From positions 1-20,394 of the IMG/VR virus record IMGVR_UViG_3300029813_000031: DNA of 20,394 nucleotides. The stretch is one strand, 5' to 3'. Position 1 is the stretch's first letter, and each line of letters begins with the position of its first letter. Origin of the DNA: a virus. The position numbers were made by a program, and so were the translations under genes. The notes beneath the pieces are model-generated. The model was not told the origin of the DNA. It made no database searches and saw only the letters and a list, made by a program, of their open reading frames with translations. This document shows, piece by piece, positions 2,312 through 19,648 of the stretch.

Positions 2312-2655
2312 TCTTCTTCTCCTGTCAAGTCCATCTCCGCCCACTCTAACGCTGGGGTTGCCGCTTCTGTCTCCCTGAATTCCTTTGCCAGCTTGAGCAT
2401 CTTATCAACATTCTTCTGCGTGTATGCGTAATCGCCTATCTTCTCACTATCAGCACTGGCGGCATATTTAGCCGCCCACGCTTCTAAAGCATCGGCAGAA
2501 GCTAGGTTGATATTATCCGAGTTCTTAGTCAGAAAATACTCTAACTCTTGGTCACTAAATACAGCATCGGTGGTTGGGTCTACATCCGTATCGCCTATTT
2601 TGAGGCGGACTTTACCAACATTTGTATCAAGGTCATAGTTATACGTTATAGCCAT
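2308..2655 (-). CDS. Head-tail connector (gp6-like)
   Basis: The 115-residue, mainly helical acidic protein fits the gp6/YqbG-like head-tail connector family that forms a ring under the portal. The N-terminal KVRLKIGDTD followed by FSDQELEYFL is the family hallmark, and helices with AWAAKYAASAD follow. The gene has a GGAGG site eight to nine bases upstream and its stop overlaps the head closure start. It begins the four-gene neck module (connector, closure, gp10-like, tail completion). Confidence 0.82.
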   Translation of the reverse strand: MAITYNYDLDTNVGKVRLKIGDTDVDPTTDAVFSDQELEYFLTKNSDNINLASADALEAWAAKYAASADSEKIGDYAYTQKNVDKMLKLAKEFRETEAATPALEWAEMDLTGEEE

Positions 2656-2664
2656 AACACCCTC

Positions 2665-4101
2665 CTAATCTATCCTGTGGCACCTTATTGTTTCCACCTT
2701 CGATGCCTCCAGCCTTGAAGCATCTATCCTTGACGGTCTTATCCTCGACGGAGCCATCCTTGACGGATTTAACCTTGATGCCTTCACTCTCGACGGACTC
2801 ACTCTCGATGGCGTTAATCTCGACGGCGTTAACCTTATCGGTTCTAACCTTGCCCGATTCACCCTAGTGAGGAAGCACCTGATAAGGTAGGCGTCTATTA
2901 CTTGTCCTGTTCCTACCCCGCTAGCCTGAGCCTCAGCGAGCACTTCTAGCAAAGCATCGGCCATCCCGCTACCGACTCCCGATGCCTGAGCTTGTGCAAT
3001 CACATCCAGAAGAGCATCGCCACTACCTATACCCACACCATTCCCCTCAGCCTGTGCGATTACATCCAGAAAGGCATCACCGCTGCCTATGCCCACGCCG
3101 CTGGCGCTGGCTTGCCCGAAAACATCGAGACGGGCTGTCGCTTCAGCTAATCCTATACCTGAGCCTGAAGCGGAACCTTCAACTACTGCTGGTGCTGTAG
3201 CATACCCAACAACGTGGAAGTCAAGGTCATTAGTTAGTATTTTGCCCTCTATAATTCGGTTAGCATCGCACTCAACGAGACCCCAATTATGTGCTGCGGC
3301 TGTATAGTAAATATTCTCTGCTGAGCCGTTCTCACGCAAGCCATAGTAATAATTCGCTCCCGTTGTTACACAGTTAACCTCGATGAATCCCATAACGGCG
3401 GTAGCAGGTAACGCTGGTAAGTCAGTCCATTCGCTATAAGGGGGAACGCTTAAGCTAACATCAGTTGCATTGGTGTTGAAGGTAGCACCATCGGTGATAT
3501 AGCCTACAAGAGCAAAGTATTGCCAAAAGCTCTCACGATAGCCTTCGCAAATCTGGGAGTCGTCACAGCCGATAATAGCTCCAAAACAAGTATGCCCTAT
3601 ATGCTCGCCAAGATGATTATCCGTGCTTCCGTTCTTACGCAGACCAGTATCATAAAAAATAGAAGCATGACCAATTACCTCAAAAATTAGCCCGACAGCG
3701 TTAGGAGCTTCAGCACTACAATCTATGTCATTCCAAGCACCAGTCGCTGGTGTTTTAACAGCACCATTAGTAAGAAAAGTAACCCCAGACATAGTATAGC
3801 CAACGACATAAATATCTTGGTCAGTGGTGCTTCCCACATAAGCCTCAAATATCCTGTTGGCATCCACGCCTATAGCTGCCCAGAAATGGTTTATCTCATG
3901 CATATTCTGGTATGTGTTGCTGGTAGAGCCGTTCTTGCGTAACCCGATAGCGTATTGAGTGGGGGCATTAGTATTCACTATATGCAGTATTACGTCAGTA
4001 GCGTTCACTGGAATATGAGCGCTAATATCAACGTCTGTCCACGCTAAAGTAGCTCCAACAGCCACCTCAACAGGGTCAATCGGAAAGAAAGTTTGCGACA
4101 C
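2665..4101 (-). CDS. Three-domain repeat protein with Gly/Ala repeats and an Arg-every-fifth tail
   Basis: I do not recognise this 478-residue protein as a named family. It has three tandem domains of about 95 residues (about 10-102, 112-201, 210-301), each with GLRKNGS or GLRENGS (53, 153, 254), a D[AD][NS][RQ]I element and a closing VGY. Strand-rich sequence suggests a beta-sandwich. Residues 311-398 are four and a half copies of a 20-residue Gly/Ala unit (SGVGIGSGDALLDVIAQ type). Residues 413-473 have Arg or Lys at exact five-residue spacing. The start is a GTG with AAGGTG upstream, sharing a base with the preceding stop (TAGTG). Its position beside the lectin-like genes suggests an external capsid or neck decoration (inference). 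The basic tail could bind DNA or a negatively charged surface. Confidence 0.7.
   Translation of the reverse strand: MSQTFFPIDPVEVAVGATLAWTDVDISAHIPVNATDVILHIVNTNAPTQYAIGLRKNGSTSNTYQNMHEINHFWAAIGVDANRIFEAYVGSTTDQDIYVVGYTMSGVTFLTNGAVKTPATGAWNDIDCSAEAPNAVGLIFEVIGHASIFYDTGLRKNGSTDNHLGEHIGHTCFGAIIGCDDSQICEGYRESFWQYFALVGYITDGATFNTNATDVSLSVPPYSEWTDLPALPATAVMGFIEVNCVTTGANYYYGLRENGSAENIYYTAAAHNWGLVECDANRIIEGKILTNDLDFHVVGYATAPAVVEGSASGSGIGLAEATARLDVFGQASASGVGIGSGDAFLDVIAQAEGNGVGIGSGDALLDVIAQAQASGVGSGMADALLEVLAEAQASGVGTGQVIDAYLIRCFLTRVNRARLEPIRLTPSRLTPSRVSPSRVKASRLNPSRMAPSRIRPSRIDASRLEASKVETIRCHRID
2696..2860. repeat. Eleven tandem 15-bp units (five-codon repeat)
   Basis: Eleven degenerate 15-base units run back to back. 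On the plus strand each resembles atccttgacggattt or actctcgacggactc. On the minus strand they encode R-[LVIM]-x-[PA]-S units at the end of the large repeat protein. On the plus strand, in the frame starting at 2696, they read xLDGx pentapeptides. Period and phase are exact throughout. Confidence 0.9.
2908..3171. repeat. 60-bp tandem repeat, four and a half units
   Basis: Units at 3171-3112, 3111-3052, 3051-2992 and 2991-2932 (minus reading) plus a partial one encode 20-residue Gly/Ala-rich segments. The two central units are nearly identical at protein level (NGVGIGSGDALLDVIAQ and SGVGIGSGDAFLDVIAQ), which suggests recent duplication or homogenisation. The plus strand shows recurring catccagaa-aggcatc blocks. 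Confidence 0.85.
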
Positions 4102-4439
4102 TACTTCACCTTTTCAGTCTTTTCCTTGACCTCTAGGAGTGGCTTTTTGAGTTCAGCCCGTATGAGATTTATTTGCTCAACTTGCATAGTCAATCCAACC
4201 TCAGCCTCACTTAGTTGTTGCTCAGGAGTAACCTCCTCGTATATGTCAAAGCCTTTAGACCATTCCACATAATCGTTCCATAAAACAGCCTTTTGAGATT
4301 GCTTCTCTTCTGTTATCAGGGATTTGTCTGCATAGATATTCATAACGGCAATCTCATACTCACTGTCCTTTTTGAGCTTCTCTTGCTTCTGCTTCTCAGT
4401 AAGCAAATGAGGGCTTTTCGGTCTCCAGATAGTTTTCAT
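4101..4439 (-). CDS. Small coiled-coil phage protein, function unknown
   Basis: A 112-residue charged protein with high predicted helix content. It has a Lys/Glu-rich first third (LLTEKQKQEKLKKDSEYE) and a second helical stretch after TPEQQLSEAEVGL. No catalytic motif or membrane segment is visible. GGGAGG lies seven bases before the ATG, and the stop shares a base with the GTG of the large repeat protein, so the two are probably translated together. It may be a chaperone or assembly partner for that protein, but this is inferred only from adjacency. Confidence 0.7.
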   Translation of the reverse strand: MKTIWRPKSPHLLTEKQKQEKLKKDSEYEIAVMNIYADKSLITEEKQSQKAVLWNDYVEWSKGFDIYEEVTPEQQLSEAEVGLTMQVEQINLIRAELKKPLLEVKEKTEKVK

Positions 4440-4460
4440 AACGCTTCCTCCCTTAAACTC

Positions 4461-4850
4461 CTAAGCCAAATTTAATACCAATGCATCAATCGGCAACTTA
4501 AACGTATCGCCCGCATTGCACGCTTTTTCAGCAGCCAATGGAGCCCAGTAAAGTATATTACCTGCAGTGGCGGCATCGCACACGATGGCGTATTTTACTG
4601 TCACGGCGGGCATCACTAAGAACTCCAGTGCCACCGAGTTCTTAATAGTCGCCTTCCCTGCTACCTGTGCTATGGCGCCGAAAGTTATCGCCTTTCTATT
4701 ACCAGTATAGGCAGTGATTTCGTGAGTAAGCGTGCCTGCCTCCAATTCAGCATCATAATCTCCAGTTTCTATCAACCCACAATAGGTAACAACATCCTTG
4801 AATGTTTCCTGCAGCCACTTTTCCTCTTGATAATCGGATATATTCGCCAT
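4461..4850 (-). CDS. Gp80-like small structural protein
   Basis: A 129-residue protein. It contains the pattern common in a family of small siphophage structural proteins (gp80 / tail-fibre-like): an RKAITFGA strand, then VKYAIVCDAATAGNILYWAPL, then NAGDTFKLPIDAL. In that family the aspartate-alanine-GGN-LLYW turn and the GDTF-IP element are the most constant parts. The biological role is unproven; members are annotated as tail fibre or head decoration. AGGAGA precedes the ATG. It is one of a run of beta-rich small genes between the capsid and connector genes. Confidence 0.62.
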   Translation of the reverse strand: MANISDYQEEKWLQETFKDVVTYCGLIETGDYDAELEAGTLTHEITAYTGNRKAITFGAIAQVAGKATIKNSVALEFLVMPAVTVKYAIVCDAATAGNILYWAPLAAEKACNAGDTFKLPIDALVLNLA

Positions 4851-14393: not shown

Positions 14394-14674
14394 CCTGCGC
14401 TCCTTTTTACAGTCATTTGGTGAAGCTCTTTTGCCAAGCGTGCAATATTCACTCCCTCATACATATTGAACAACCCATCTATATAGCACTCGTAGCAAAT
14501 ACCAACATGGCACTCACCCTTTCCATCGCTATACTTACCCAACTGGAGATTGTTATAGGCGATGGTTTCCTGTGTTCTGTTTGGTTTATCAATGATAACA
14601 TCTACCACAATCCCCTTCATGGTTCCATTGCTATCTGCTCGTTCCATTTCCTTGCTACACTTAAAACATTTCAT
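14390..14674 (-). CDS. Zinc-binding small phage protein
   Basis: A 94-residue protein with CFKCSKEM at the N-terminus and CYECY near residue 60, giving a CxxC...CxxC pair likely to bind one zinc, with a strand-rich middle (GIVVDVIIDKP). GGAGG lies six to seven bases upstream; start and stop overlap the portal and next gene (ATGA). It is not assigned to a named family. Confidence 0.72.
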   Translation of the reverse strand: MKCFKCSKEMERADSNGTMKGIVVDVIIDKPNRTQETIAYNNLQLGKYSDGKGECHVGICYECYIDGLFNMYEGVNIARLAKELHQMTVKRSAG

Positions 14675-16095
14675 TTAGGTTCCTCCTTTCTCTTTATAAT
14701 TTCCCTGAGTAGTCTCGTCACTTTAAGCAAAGCAACGTTAGTATCACTCTCTGTTTTCTTCTCTACCTTATCAAGAGCGTCTAATACCTCAGCGGTATCG
14801 TTTATGCCCAGAGTCACTAGTGCCAACTGCTGAATATCCTGCGAGCCTGCGAACTCGGGCAAAACCCCGATGATGTCTACAATCGCCTTTGAGACAAGGG
14901 CAACATCCTGAGGTGCTATCGGTGGGAAATCTCTGTCGACATACCATTTATCCGGGGGAATATTAGCGTGCGCCAATACAATCTCGTCAATATCCTGATA
15001 AGCAGCATTCCAAACAGCTTGATAGGATTGAATCATCTTTGCTACAGGCAGTTCTACGGTCTTCGCAGTGGCAAGATTCCCGATTGATATGTCCCCGAAA
15101 TATTGTTCTGGCCAACCTACACCTGAATGGAACATCAATTTAATCATCCGCCCGTCAGTATAGGCTACCTGCCCGCCTGTTTCGGTCTTTATGGGGATAG
15201 TATCCACGCCCAAATTCTCTACTAAGACTGAGCCTGCCTCTACCTCTTTGTCATGTGTCTTGGCCTTAATGGCATCCACAGCTGCCTGCCCGCCTTTTAC
15301 TTTCTGCCGCCAAGCGAACTTAGCCAATGCTAGCATTATAGCTATGCGGCTAGCTAAGAACTTCGTGTTATATTTCAACCAGGGTAAGGCGGGTAACAAT
15401 AATGGGTTGCCTCTTTGGGTAGTGGTATTGTATGGAAAATGATAAATCAGAGCATCCTGCGACTTTTGAACACTCGTACCTAGCGCATCTTTTGCGCCTG
15501 CACCTTTAGGGTTGGTCACACTACAATAATGGTCTTTATGTGATTTACCCTGTGCATCCGACCATTCCCTACGGTAGAACATCACCTTTTCCTTATCGTC
15601 AAGATCGGTGATTATCTCGGTTATCTCCAATGGGTCAATCCACCTGATTGTAATCATACCCTTGGCACCCAAAAAGAGAGCAAAGAACAATTCGCCATCT
15701 ACTAATAGTTTGTCGGATGATTTACGCTGCCCCCGAGCGGAGAGCACGGTCTTATTATCTTTTGCGTCCCAGAACGCCTTTAGTACCTTCTTAGCCCCTT
15801 CGTCTTCCGCCTGCCAAGTCATACCCGGACCAAAGGTATAGTCTGTCCATAACCTAATAGCCTGCTTCCCCAATGGGTCTTTGAGGGCATAGAGGCGTGA
15901 TAGTTTGAGGTTTGCTATTCGTTCTGCTGGCTGGATAACATCAGCCGTTGTACCGCTCAAGTTCACCCACCCTTCGTCCTCTAGTGCTAAAGTAGCCTCA
16001 ACACTGGCGATAGCTTCTCTTATGAATAATTCTAACTCATCCTTTGGTGCGAGCTCTCTTAAATGTGTTTCCTGTTTTGTTTCTATTTTAGCCAT
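14671..16095 (-). CDS. Portal protein
   Basis: The 474-residue protein has the size and layout of a siphophage portal (SPP1 gp6 / HK97 gp3 type). It starts with helical residues, then LYALKDPLGKQAIRLWTDYTFGPGMTW, a classic portal clip entry, followed by LLVDGELFFALF and ITIRWIDPLEITEI strands, DALIYHFPYNTTTQRGNPLLLPALPWLKYN, and AIMLALAKFAWRQKVKG. The C-terminal helical crown ends in a coiled, charged tail. The dodecameric ring at the head vertex would bind terminase during packaging. It overlaps the serine protease by eight bases (ATGGCTAA) and the zinc-finger gene by ATGA. The identification is strong by pattern and by order. Confidence 0.9.
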   Translation of the reverse strand: MAKIETKQETHLRELAPKDELELFIREAIASVEATLALEDEGWVNLSGTTADVIQPAERIANLKLSRLYALKDPLGKQAIRLWTDYTFGPGMTWQAEDEGAKKVLKAFWDAKDNKTVLSARGQRKSSDKLLVDGELFFALFLGAKGMITIRWIDPLEITEIITDLDDKEKVMFYRREWSDAQGKSHKDHYCSVTNPKGAGAKDALGTSVQKSQDALIYHFPYNTTTQRGNPLLLPALPWLKYNTKFLASRIAIMLALAKFAWRQKVKGGQAAVDAIKAKTHDKEVEAGSVLVENLGVDTIPIKTETGGQVAYTDGRMIKLMFHSGVGWPEQYFGDISIGNLATAKTVELPVAKMIQSYQAVWNAAYQDIDEIVLAHANIPPDKWYVDRDFPPIAPQDVALVSKAIVDIIGVLPEFAGSQDIQQLALVTLGINDTAEVLDALDKVEKKTESDTNVALLKVTRLLREIIKRKEEPK

Positions 16096-17077
16096 CTAAC
16101 TGCAACGCCTCCTTGATATTGGAGTATTTGTTCAGTATCGACAATTTATCACTTCCCGCAAAGCCTCCCCCAACAACCCTATTGTCTTCGGTCAATATAA
16201 TCATACCGCTATCCCCGCCTAGTAACATCGGCCCCTTCGTGATAAGCTGGTCTTCAAGAAAGATTTGGCCTGAATTATACATAACATTGGCCGTACCATC
16301 TATTGCGGCTATCTCATCATGAACGAGCGCCGATGTTCTACCGCTTCCCTTTATCTTCATGCCCACTTCGCCTTCAGTCCTCCCTTTTGGCTCGCCTATC
16401 TCCAGGATGCTATCCAGGAATTCCGCATCATCGAGAGGGCGAGCCAAGGCAACATCGACTTTGTTTATGCCTTCTCTGGTTTCTTTGGGCACAATAGCTT
16501 GAAGTCTGGTTTCTCTTCCTGCTATTAGGGCAATCCAATTACAGATATCAACGATAAAGTTCGCCACCGGGCAATCGCTCGGAGGAGGAGGAGGTTCTGG
16601 CTCTTCCCCCTCGAAGCCTATGAGCGGGATGAATTCAGCCAATTTCGCCCGCTCCTTGACTCCACCATCCAGCTTCCCAGGCTGGAAGATAGAATCTCCA
16701 ATAACCGCCTTGTTCTCATTAGCCAAGCCATGATTATTCGACAATATATACCGCACGCTCGTCTTCCATACCATAATACCATGTGTTCCAGCGCTTACAT
16801 CCTTATGACCAATAGATACTCCACCAGGAGCAGGATTCCATTCGTCCGTTCTAGCTTGTAAGGCACGGATTACCCCTGCCTCAATCACATCAGTTTCCTT
16901 ATCATCGACTTTCGCTGGGATTACATCCTCTATCTTCAAGGCGTGCAATGGTAGTTTTTTGATTACGCCGACCACTATAGCGTCCCTCCCTGTATCTTCA
17001 CCTCGAACTATCTTGTGCCCTTTGCCTACCAAAACCACGTTAGGCTTGGTAAACAGCCATTTAGTTATCTCGTCCAT
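16088..17077 (-). CDS. Trypsin-fold serine protease (Nal1-like)
   Basis: The 329-residue protein has a chymotrypsin-type core. H116 lies in YILSNNHG, D208 in KVDVALA and S290 in GGDSG, followed by a VVGGGFAG strand. This is the order and context of the catalytic triad. An insertion (about 156-181) with a proline run and two cysteines interrupts the barrel. No signal peptide is seen, so the enzyme acts inside the cell or in the virion. It sits between terminase and portal. It is a second protease beside the prohead-type one downstream. Possible roles are cutting a head protein, DNA delivery or a host-directed task; none can be chosen from sequence. AGGAGG precedes the ATG. Confidence 0.78.
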   Translation of the reverse strand: MDEITKWLFTKPNVVLVGKGHKIVRGEDTGRDAIVVGVIKKLPLHALKIEDVIPAKVDDKETDVIEAGVIRALQARTDEWNPAPGGVSIGHKDVSAGTHGIMVWKTSVRYILSNNHGLANENKAVIGDSIFQPGKLDGGVKERAKLAEFIPLIGFEGEEPEPPPPPSDCPVANFIVDICNWIALIAGRETRLQAIVPKETREGINKVDVALARPLDDAEFLDSILEIGEPKGRTEGEVGMKIKGSGRTSALVHDEIAAIDGTANVMYNSGQIFLEDQLITKGPMLLGGDSGMIILTEDNRVVGGGFAGSDKLSILNKYSNIKEALQLDG

Positions 17078-17355: not shown

Positions 17356-18045
17356 TTATAAGTCTAAGTTCACCTCTTTCATTGTATCATAAATCACAAT
17401 CATTTCTTGCTCTAATTTACCCCTCATAAATGATAGCACCTGAGTCGTGCTATCCACCTGATCATCATGTGTAGCATTGGGGAAAGCTGACAGTTCCTCA
17501 ATATAATCAAATAGCCAAGGAGCATTCTCAGGCAAGAAGACTCTACCAGCTTCTATTAAAGGAGTGATAGCATAAACGCGAGCAACTTTATCACTATCCA
17601 CCTTAAACGGGATAACAGGGATTTTAGTATCCCGTTGTAGTTCCTGTATTAAAGACTGCCCACTTGCTTTATCTTCCACTAATACAGCACTAGGTTTATC
17701 GCGTGCATCCAAAGCCATGGCAACCCGTTTTAACTCAGGGAATTCTACTTTAGCACGCCACACATCAAGCAAATAATAGCCATTCTGTGTTTCACCCCAT
17801 ACTGTACAAACTGAATAATCGTTCTGTGTCTTATCTTTGAATGCCGTATCCCAGCTATGGATTATCCTTGCAAATTGTGGCGGTTCTCTGAAATATCTCC
17901 ACCATTCTCGCTTAATTATCTGACCCTCAGCCACAGTAGGATTACCCTGATATAATGATTCGAATGCCCTGCTACCTATGCTACTTCTTATGTTTTCCAA
18001 TACCTCTAGTGGATACCTCTCGGGCCACAAAGCTATCTTAGACAT
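17356..18045 (-). CDS. Terminase large subunit, C-terminal nuclease part
   Basis: The 229-residue ORF is the RNase H-like nuclease half of the packaging terminase. The start MSKIALWPERYPLEVLENIRS directly matches the ordinary mid-terminase ALWPERF segment, and GSRAFESLYQGNP follows. Acidic residues fit the metal site: D66 in HSWDTAF, E124/D125 in VEDKASGQ, and D194/D195/D198 in HDDQVDS. It cuts concatemeric DNA at packaging start and end. The gene begins inside the last codons of the HNH gene (ATGTCTAA overlap), with AGAGG ten bases before the ATG, so it may be made by coupling. The ATPase half is a separate ORF upstream in another frame. Confidence 0.88.
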   Translation of the reverse strand: MSKIALWPERYPLEVLENIRSSIGSRAFESLYQGNPTVAEGQIIKREWWRYFREPPQFARIIHSWDTAFKDKTQNDYSVCTVWGETQNGYYLLDVWRAKVEFPELKRVAMALDARDKPSAVLVEDKASGQSLIQELQRDTKIPVIPFKVDSDKVARVYAITPLIEAGRVFLPENAPWLFDYIEELSAFPNATHDDQVDSTTQVLSFMRGKLEQEMIVIYDTMKEVNLDL

Positions 18046-18529
18046 TCTGTAACACCCTCTCAGCCTCTAAGAGCAAGATACGCTTAGAAAGAGATTGATT
18101 TTCAACTTCCAATCTTTTGACTCTTTGCTCTAGTATGGTTATCTGATTATGACCATTGACTAATTCTAGAGATAAGTTCTCTGGATACCTATTATCCTGT
18201 TTATCTTCTGTACTCCCTGCTGGATATTTGTTATGCTTATGATGAACTATCTCCCAGGGATGTAGACAGCGACCTAATGCCTTCGCTACTACAAGACGAT
18301 GCTCATAGACATATCTCTGTTTATTCGTCATAGGGTAGAAGAAATCATCAGGGTGAAGTTTTATCCAGAAATAACCATTATGCAAGGTGTGTCCACCCCT
18401 CCAACTAGGGCAAAACTCACCCATATGTTTCCCCTTGCGTGTTTGGCTCATCTTTAATTTTTCAATATCAGAGCGTCTTTTCCCTTTATTACCGTGTTCC
18501 TTCTTTATAGTATTTGGTGTAGAACTCAT
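18038..18529 (-). CDS. HNH homing endonuclease inside terminase, copy 1
   Basis: A 163-residue HNH endonuclease sits between the two terminase halves. KLKMSQTRKGKH (residues 25-35) looks like a NUMOD3-type DNA-binding helix. The HNH_3-like core has PSWRGG, KLHPDDFFYPMT, VYEHRLVVAKALGRCL and PWEIVHHKHN with H96-H97, then ENLSLE, and a coiled coil follows (about 127-163). I chose ATG 18529, with AGGAG six bases upstream; that site is encoded by the terminase Glu-Gly-Glu-Gln codons. An extension to 18598 would run in terminase sequence. It overlaps the terminase ATPase stop by 41 bases and the nuclease start by eight. No untranslated intron sequence remains. It is likely to spread by cutting uninterrupted terminase genes (inference from family). 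Confidence 0.87.
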   Translation of the reverse strand: MSSTPNTIKKEHGNKGKRRSDIEKLKMSQTRKGKHMGEFCPSWRGGHTLHNGYFWIKLHPDDFFYPMTNKQRYVYEHRLVVAKALGRCLHPWEIVHHKHNKYPAGSTEDKQDNRYPENLSLELVNGHNQITILEQRVKRLEVENQSLSKRILLLEAERVLQNV

Positions 18530-19325
18530 ATTGCTCTCCTTCTTCACTGATAGCTCTAAAATGTAGAATTTTCCATTGATCGGATTCAGGACTTTCATCT
18601 GCTAATTCTATTAAACGCCCTACCAAATCTGAAATATGCCACCTCGTCATCACCACTATGATCGCAGCATCAGGCTCCGCCCGGGTGCGGAAGACTTTTT
18701 GATACCAATCCCAGACCTTCTCTCTAACAGTCAAGCTCGCTGCTTCTTCCTCGTCCTTCACAGGATCGTCTATAATCCCTATATTAAAGCCTCTACCAGT
18801 CAAGCCCCCACCAATACCGACCGCATAATATGATCCGCCTTGCTTCGTTCCCCATTCATGGGCAGCTTGTCTTTCAGGTATGATTGTCTCCTGTCCTGCA
18901 CGTTCAGGACGATGATAGATAGTAGGAAAGAGTCTCCTCATCTCCGGTAATATAAAGATGTCTCTCGCTTGGCGTGAGTGTGTTAAGGCGATAGATTCAG
19001 CATAGCCTGCTTGGACTATATAATCTTCAGAATGTTTCGCCAAATACCAGCAGGGGAATCGAAGGGATATAAGCTCTGACTTACCGTGTCTTGGCGGCAT
19101 CAATACTATCAACCGCTTTAATTCTCCCCTCTCTACAGCTTCTAACGCCTCTGACAATGCTATAAGATGCGGCGGTGTTGAATATGCTGGAAAGGTAAAC
19201 TGGCAAAAAGGCAGAAGGTTCCTGCGTGCCTTCCTTCTTCTTAGAAGTTCCTCAGCCGCGGCGACGCTCGATAATTGCGGCGAGCTCCTCATCTGATAGG
19301 TTCTCGGCTTTATTAATGTTTCCAC
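18489..19325 (-). CDS. Terminase large subunit, N-terminal ATPase part
   Basis: The 278-residue ORF is the packaging ATPase half of the large terminase. Walker A lies in LIVLMPPRHGKSE (G81-K82-S83) and Walker B in NIGIIDDPVKDEEE (D186-D187). VVMTRWH near 224-230 is the coupling motif, and the arginine-rich GRGFNIGI region precedes Walker B. The natural sequence continues to ISEEGEQ and then ends in a 14-residue, out-of-context tail (YEFYTKYYKEGTR) read from HNH-gene DNA. The start GTG at 19325 has AAGAGGT about eight bases upstream; an internal ATG at 19292 is an alternative. It overlaps the small subunit by 74 bases, or 41 with the ATG. Confidence 0.9.
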   Translation of the reverse strand: METLIKPRTYQMRSSPQLSSVAAAEELLRRRKARRNLLPFCQFTFPAYSTPPHLIALSEALEAVERGELKRLIVLMPPRHGKSELISLRFPCWYLAKHSEDYIVQAGYAESIALTHSRQARDIFILPEMRRLFPTIYHRPERAGQETIIPERQAAHEWGTKQGGSYYAVGIGGGLTGRGFNIGIIDDPVKDEEEAASLTVREKVWDWYQKVFRTRAEPDAAIIVVMTRWHISDLVGRLIELADESPESDQWKILHFRAISEEGEQYEFYTKYYKEGTR

Positions 19326-19641
19326 TATGCTCTACCTCTTGTTTGTCTGCCATACCGAGCCAGTTCTTAGCCAGGAAAATGGCGACTGCTGGCTGCTTTT
19401 CACTCATCCTTAGCAAGTTGCGACGAAGAGCTATTTTACCTCCTACTCTCTTTTTGGCAAAATAAACCGCAAAAGTAGCTTGCTTCTCTTCTGCAAGTCG
19501 CCGTTCAAGAGTATCTGGCGAACAATGAAACCAGTCTGCTATCTCCTGTAAGGTACACTGCAGAAAACAGAGCTTATCAAATTCCTTCCAATCTATTTGG
19601 ATTTTAGGTCTCCCGCCATTCTTATTATTAGGTCTAGCCAT
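19252..19641 (-). CDS. Terminase small subunit
   Basis: The 129-residue protein opens MARPNNKNGGRPKIQIDW, a common opening of phage small terminase subunits. A helix-turn-helix follows (KLCFLQCTLQEIADWFHCSPDTLERRL, about 24-50), which would recognise the packaging start site. Then comes a helical oligomerisation part (VGGKIALRRNLLRMSEKQPAVAIFLAKNWLGM), and the C-terminus (NLSDEELAAIIERRRG) probably touches the large subunit. The ATG at 19641 has GAGG five bases upstream; an ATG directly before it is in frame. First clear gene of the late operon. Confidence 0.87.
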   Translation of the reverse strand: MARPNNKNGGRPKIQIDWKEFDKLCFLQCTLQEIADWFHCSPDTLERRLAEEKQATFAVYFAKKRVGGKIALRRNLLRMSEKQPAVAIFLAKNWLGMADKQEVEHSGNINKAENLSDEELAAIIERRRG

Positions 19642-19648
19642 CATTACC

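Follow-up and report, generated by a model that had tools for sequence, protein, structure and literature searches.

A large terminase gene probably interrupted by a free-standing HNH homing endonuclease gene at a site shared by three phage contigs

Selfish endonuclease genes usually occupy essential genes by means of an intron or an intein. The locus studied here raises the question whether such a gene can reside in the large terminase gene (terL) of a phage with neither of them, leaving a terminase made of two chains. It is located in an IMG/VR fragment of 20,394 bases, further referred to as the window (the whole stretch of DNA that was analysed). On the minus strand of the window the genes follow in the order small terminase subunit-like (terS-like) gene, N-terminal part of terL (TerL-N), HNH endonuclease gene, C-terminal part of terL (TerL-C), protease and portal. 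We consider it probable that a free-standing HNH homing endonuclease gene was inserted in the terL coding sequence without an intron or intein, and that the terminase is a two-chain protein.

TerL-N (positions 18489–19325, minus strand) encodes the ATPase core: Walker A and Walker B (GIIDDP) are present, as is the coupling motif VVMTRWH. In translation, the Walker A motif MPPRHGKS occupies positions 19077–19100 (minus strand), and its residues G81 and K82 are invariant in the alignment. The product matches PHROG_38 at 251–479 (E 6e-55), PHROG_4758 (E 8e-57) and Pfam Terminase_6N. TerL-C (17356–18045, minus strand) encodes the end of the ATPase domain (~34 residues) and the RNase H-like nuclease. 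It matches PHROG_38 at 486–715 (E 9e-62) and Pfam Terminase_6C (E 2e-21), and retains in the alignment the acidic residues D66, E124/D125 and D194/D195/D198. The features of a phage large terminase, that is, Walker A and B, the coupling motif and the RNase H-like acidic residues, are present across these two ORFs, and the ATPase motifs and the nuclease lie in separate ORFs and different frames exactly as an earlier sequence-only reading had stated. The free-standing HNH gene (18038–18529, minus strand; 163 aa; PHROG_20891 and PHROG_10730) is situated between the halves; the overlaps of 41 and 8 bases given by that reading are reproduced by the HNH ATG at 18529, the HNH stop at 18038 and the TerL-C start at 18045. 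It is possible that the HNH ORF starts further upstream, from 18598.

Directly upstream of TerL-N lies the terS-like gene (19252–19644, minus strand; PHROG_309, E 3e-6, and PHROG_606). The TerL-N ORF as listed shares 74 bases with it (19252–19325), and the ATG at 19292 is probably the conserved TerL-N start. Downstream of TerL-C are two genes of the head module, a protease-like gene (16088–17077, minus strand) and the portal gene (14671–16095, minus strand), with matches to PHROG_20754 and PHROG_10963. The whole window record, a 20 kb fragment of a genome, yields one terL match. A DNA-level comparison of the window with annotated phages gave no match.

The cut point was defined by comparison with intact genes. 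In scans of viral contigs, terL of dozens of close relatives runs through this point continuously in a single frame, and more than 40 close relatives have an intact terL with no HNH gene there. The distance between the N- and C-terminal matches in close intact relatives is nearly always one codon. The intact junction peptide is LHFxAI-xxGx-ALWPERYP, mostly with four variable residues between LHFxAI and ALWPERYP (LHFKAI-KDGQ-ALWAERYP in L007, for example). The window reads ISEEGEQ, followed by the insert, and all junction residues of intact terL are present. Uninterrupted relatives had been expected to join at EEGEQ/ALWPER, and the junction is indeed found there, as EEG(E)/ALWPER. The suggestion that mid-terminase sequence had been lost between ISEEGEQ and ALWPERYP is not upheld, given that the variable residues of the intact relatives are all kept in the window.

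Relative to intact terL, the insert covers positions 18034–18533 (minus strand), 500 bp in total. In two other IMG/VR contigs, L032 and L082, terL is interrupted at this point by a relative of the HNH gene, also with no intron, in inserts of 476 and 473 bp, respectively. All three lengths equal 2 modulo 3; hence the terL halves are in different frames. An assembly artefact is excluded, as both of these further metagenome contigs show the arrangement.

A profile search of the PDB with the sequence gave nothing at E 0.001, weak terminase matches appearing only above this value; therefore a predicted structure was used, namely an AlphaFold model of the intact homologue L030 (mean pLDDT 86.7). The model matches known large terminases: the P74-26 ATPase domain (residues 4–254) aligns to model residues 35–297, and the G20c nuclease (257–442) aligns to 299–467. 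The cut falls between residues 263 and 264 of the model, in a short connection ahead of helices 272–290. Thus the split is not at the ATPase/nuclease boundary: the cut precedes the end of the ATPase domain (~297), and therefore the last piece of the ATPase joins the nuclease chain. According to the model, the ATP-binding core would lie on TerL-N, and the nuclease together with the final portion of the ATPase domain on TerL-C. Judging by P74-26 and T4 gp17, we take this final portion to be the lid region. A two-chain motor is possible; it would need re-association within the ATPase domain.

Both overlaps carry translation signals. The HNH gene starts inside the end of TerL-N, within the sequence GAAGGAG-AGCAAT-ATG. 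At the other end, the motif RTG-YCT-AA(R), combining the HNH stop and the TerL-C start, is found 9–10 bases past AAGG or GAGG in the window, L032 and L082, so that in all three split genes the start codons for TerL-C lie inside the insert. In the window this restart signal (18034–18060, minus strand) reads GAGAGG-10 nt-ATG TCT AAG. The insert also encodes the 13-residue tail of TerL-N, YEFYTKYYKEGTR (18492–18530, minus strand), which overlaps the HNH start and has 12 of its 13 residues identical in L032. Five base differences separate the window and L032 in this 13-codon overlap, and four of them are at terL third positions (three silent) and HNH second positions (all changing HNH). A simple binomial count by hand over these few sites gives p ~0.045; the pattern is only suggestive that the TerL-N tail is really translated.

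The history of the insertion was addressed with a maximum likelihood tree built from both parts (N and C) of 44 terL proteins, 41 of them intact and three split. The split proteins fall in three places on the tree, requiring three changes. Forcing them into a single clade costs 107 log units and is rejected (p-AU 1.1e-5). The L082 protein pairs with that of intact L090 (support 100/99), and the window protein is placed among intact L002, L005, L006, L007, L010, L011 and L035 (98/94). The L032 protein is placed with less support, close to intact L020 and L029; its contig covers only the end of its terL N part, and fewer than half of its alignment columns are present. As the split proteins do not group together, the element has either moved repeatedly or been repeatedly lost; their non-monophyly supports mobility between lineages at the same site. 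Instead of repeated gains, there could have been one old gain followed by losses, and either history would mean exchange at one precise site. A co-conversion tract was sought between the window and L032, and identity was no higher beside the insert.

The window HNH protein has an HNH_3-type core (~18170–18304) and a C-terminal heptad-like helix. Its score against Pfam HNH_3 (PF13392, cutoff 24.8 bits) is 10.3 bits (E 0.59), compared to 26.6 bits for L032 and 44 bits for L082. Residues H77, H96, H97 and N113 are invariant in the three proteins, and the nuclease loop of the window protein is ~9 residues longer than in the other two, owing to an in-frame insertion; this protein may be heading towards inactivity. 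Identity to the window protein equals 63% for L032 (long ORF) and 47% for L082, the figures for aligned residues being 69% and 53%, respectively. Outside terL, members of the family occur commonly in IMG/VR contigs, at scattered loci. One relative of the window protein (L192, ~2340–2870) is encoded at a gene junction, upstream of a terS-like gene and next to a small gene, representing a free-standing form; it was considered as another gene split by this family and rejected, as the insertion is located between two genes. In the search for other genes split by HNH relatives, the terL cases were the only ones found. The genome IMGVR_UViG_3300014613_000065 (L012, L124, L146) has an intact terL and two other copies of the HNH family elsewhere.

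Interruptions of another kind were seen in the terL genes of five relatives or more remote members. L021, L042, L292, L325 and L353 have an intein at the coupling motif (VM/C...HN/TRW), with NCBIfam intein N- and C-terminal domains found in L021 and L042. An endonuclease VII-like HNH gene (PF02945, E ~1e-19, tested in L021 and L042) runs across the middle of the intein in another frame, and its frame relative to the intein is shared by all five. The intein-containing gene and the overlapping endonuclease are at 2402–4687 and 3322–3798 in L021, and at 2426–4708 and 3307–3789 in L042; the remaining inteins are at ~2980–3930 (L292), ~1050–2000 (L325) and ~1490–2440 (L353). Identity between members in the overlapping stretch is 46–67% in the endonuclease frame and 27–42% in the intein frame. 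The intein frame is stop-free in all five, and synonymous shuffles keep it open in 7–55% of cases each. By these comparisons the endonuclease frame is conserved, and the intein frame simply stop-free. Being inteins, L292, L325 and L353 were rejected as HNH-type splits; among other candidate interruptions, L300 was rejected as a stretch of Ns, and L270 and L316–L318 represent shorter upstream frames.

Could a single full-length TerL still be made? This would be so if the insert were an undetected self-splicing intron carrying the HNH gene, and removal of the whole insert does restore a single frame. Moreover, two phages with introns have a terL that consists of two ORFs and is accompanied by a homing endonuclease gene: Lelliottia phage phD2B (PMC4246154) and ICP1, where splicing was demonstrated by RNA-seq and RT-PCR (PMC10448857). 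In phD2B, however, 173 and 37 bases separate the annotated ORFs, whereas the window ORFs overlap, with only about ten insert bases outside the HNH ORF. A permissive Rfam search detected no intron, either in the window (E up to 5) or in L032 and L082 (E up to 1); the group I intron ribozyme core RF00028, absent from all three inserts, was recovered from the split terL of phD2B (KM370384), used as a positive control, with 58 bits and E 1e-13. RNA folding of the inserts is no better than that of shuffled sequences (z −0.55, −0.39 and −1.23), and on these grounds the insert was judged to contain neither a group I intron nor another structured RNA. Differences between the window and L032 are distributed over HNH codon positions as 31/24/72 of 154, a coding-type pattern along the whole insert, with silent changes in every block except the last four codons; besides, all three inserts contain the TerL-C start with AAGG or GAGG. 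An intron is therefore quite unlikely, and the earlier claim that there is no room for a group I intron stands. Alternatively, the halves could be joined into one TerL chain by ribosomes bypassing or shifting over the HNH gene, as T4 gene 60 bypassing occurs next to mobA, or by a split intein. Against this, the gap is ~500 bases long and has its own ORF, and TerL-N is conserved as a protein through its tail up to the stop; a split intein was rejected, as neither half has intein sequence (the additions are the 13-residue tail and a four-residue leader). Such joining appears extremely improbable.

Nor does the split gene look like a relic. The phage may be defective, or package its DNA with another terminase, given that insertions in essential genes are frequently lethal and that a 20 kb fragment leaves room for another terL. 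However, the record has its single terL match adjoined by head genes, and the same arrangement is present in three phages, with invariant motifs and no stops or frameshifts in the covered parts of the halves. The pN/pS ratios between the window and close intact relatives (0.15–0.19 for the N part and 0.11–0.18 for the C part, with synonymous sites near saturation) indicate strong purifying selection on both halves and resemble those of intact–intact pairs, being indirect for the split state, as most terL divergence may be older than the insertion. For the window and L082, the terminal branches show no clear excess in length over their intact neighbours. Both terL pieces look functional from these data, and decay of the gene is unlikely. 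In HK97-type phages, an HNH protein encoded beside the terminase genes helps with cos cleavage (PMC10448857), so the HNH protein could likewise be a working part of packaging for which the split is kept. This is very unlikely: the close relatives with intact terL lack it there, the family is scattered, and the split genes have a patchy, non-sister distribution.

We thus return to the insertion of a free-standing gene. The compact cassette of ~475–500 bp adds a short tail and a stop to the upstream ORF, encodes the HNH protein, and gives the downstream ORF a likely ribosome-binding site and a start codon. The insertion removes no terminase residue, and related cassettes occupy the same codon in three non-sister phages. 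In mixed infections, the HNH protein would cut intact terL alleles at the conserved site, and repair would copy the cassette into the cut gene. From one mRNA, three ORFs would be translated through overlap-coupled starts, and the ATPase-core chain would associate non-covalently with the chain carrying the rest of the ATPase and the nuclease to form a working packaging motor. On balance we favour a recurrent intron-less cassette, with a stop upstream and a start downstream, that colonises one terL codon repeatedly, and a motor that works with the core and the lid region on different chains.

The closest parallel, as proposed earlier and as confirmed by the tested features (HNH gene between the halves, no intron or intein), is nrdA of Aeromonas phage Aeh1, split by the free-standing HNH gene mobE (PMC2988022). 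In both systems an HNH homing endonuclease gene inside an essential gene leaves separate coding regions and two polypeptides. In contrast to Aeh1, the target here is the packaging ATPase/nuclease, the protein is of the HNH_3 type, and the site has been entered or lost repeatedly; two-chain function was demonstrated for Aeh1, whereas here it is inferred from sequence conservation. The T4 topoisomerase genes 39/60 with mobA and the Aeromonas phage genes 43A/43B (PMC2988022) also encode two-chain enzymes linked to homing endonuclease insertion; the enzymes are different, and the endonuclease as the cause of the 43A/43B split is uncertain (PMC2988022). The fractured genes of Dassa et al. (2009), as cited in PMC10448857, similarly have a free-standing endonuclease gene between two gene halves; as described there, those halves bear split inteins, unlike the window halves. 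Our literature search retrieved no report of terL split by a free-standing HNH gene without an intron, although such absence is not proof.

The locus represents a coding-only cassette in a packaging motor gene, present in more than one lineage and cutting within the ATPase domain. It illustrates how a selfish gene can persist in an essential gene with neither an intron nor an intein. Phages of this kind would be overlooked or misinterpreted by annotation pipelines that rely on terL as a marker. A naturally split motor for probing communication between the ATPase core, lid and nuclease would be available if the two chains assemble.
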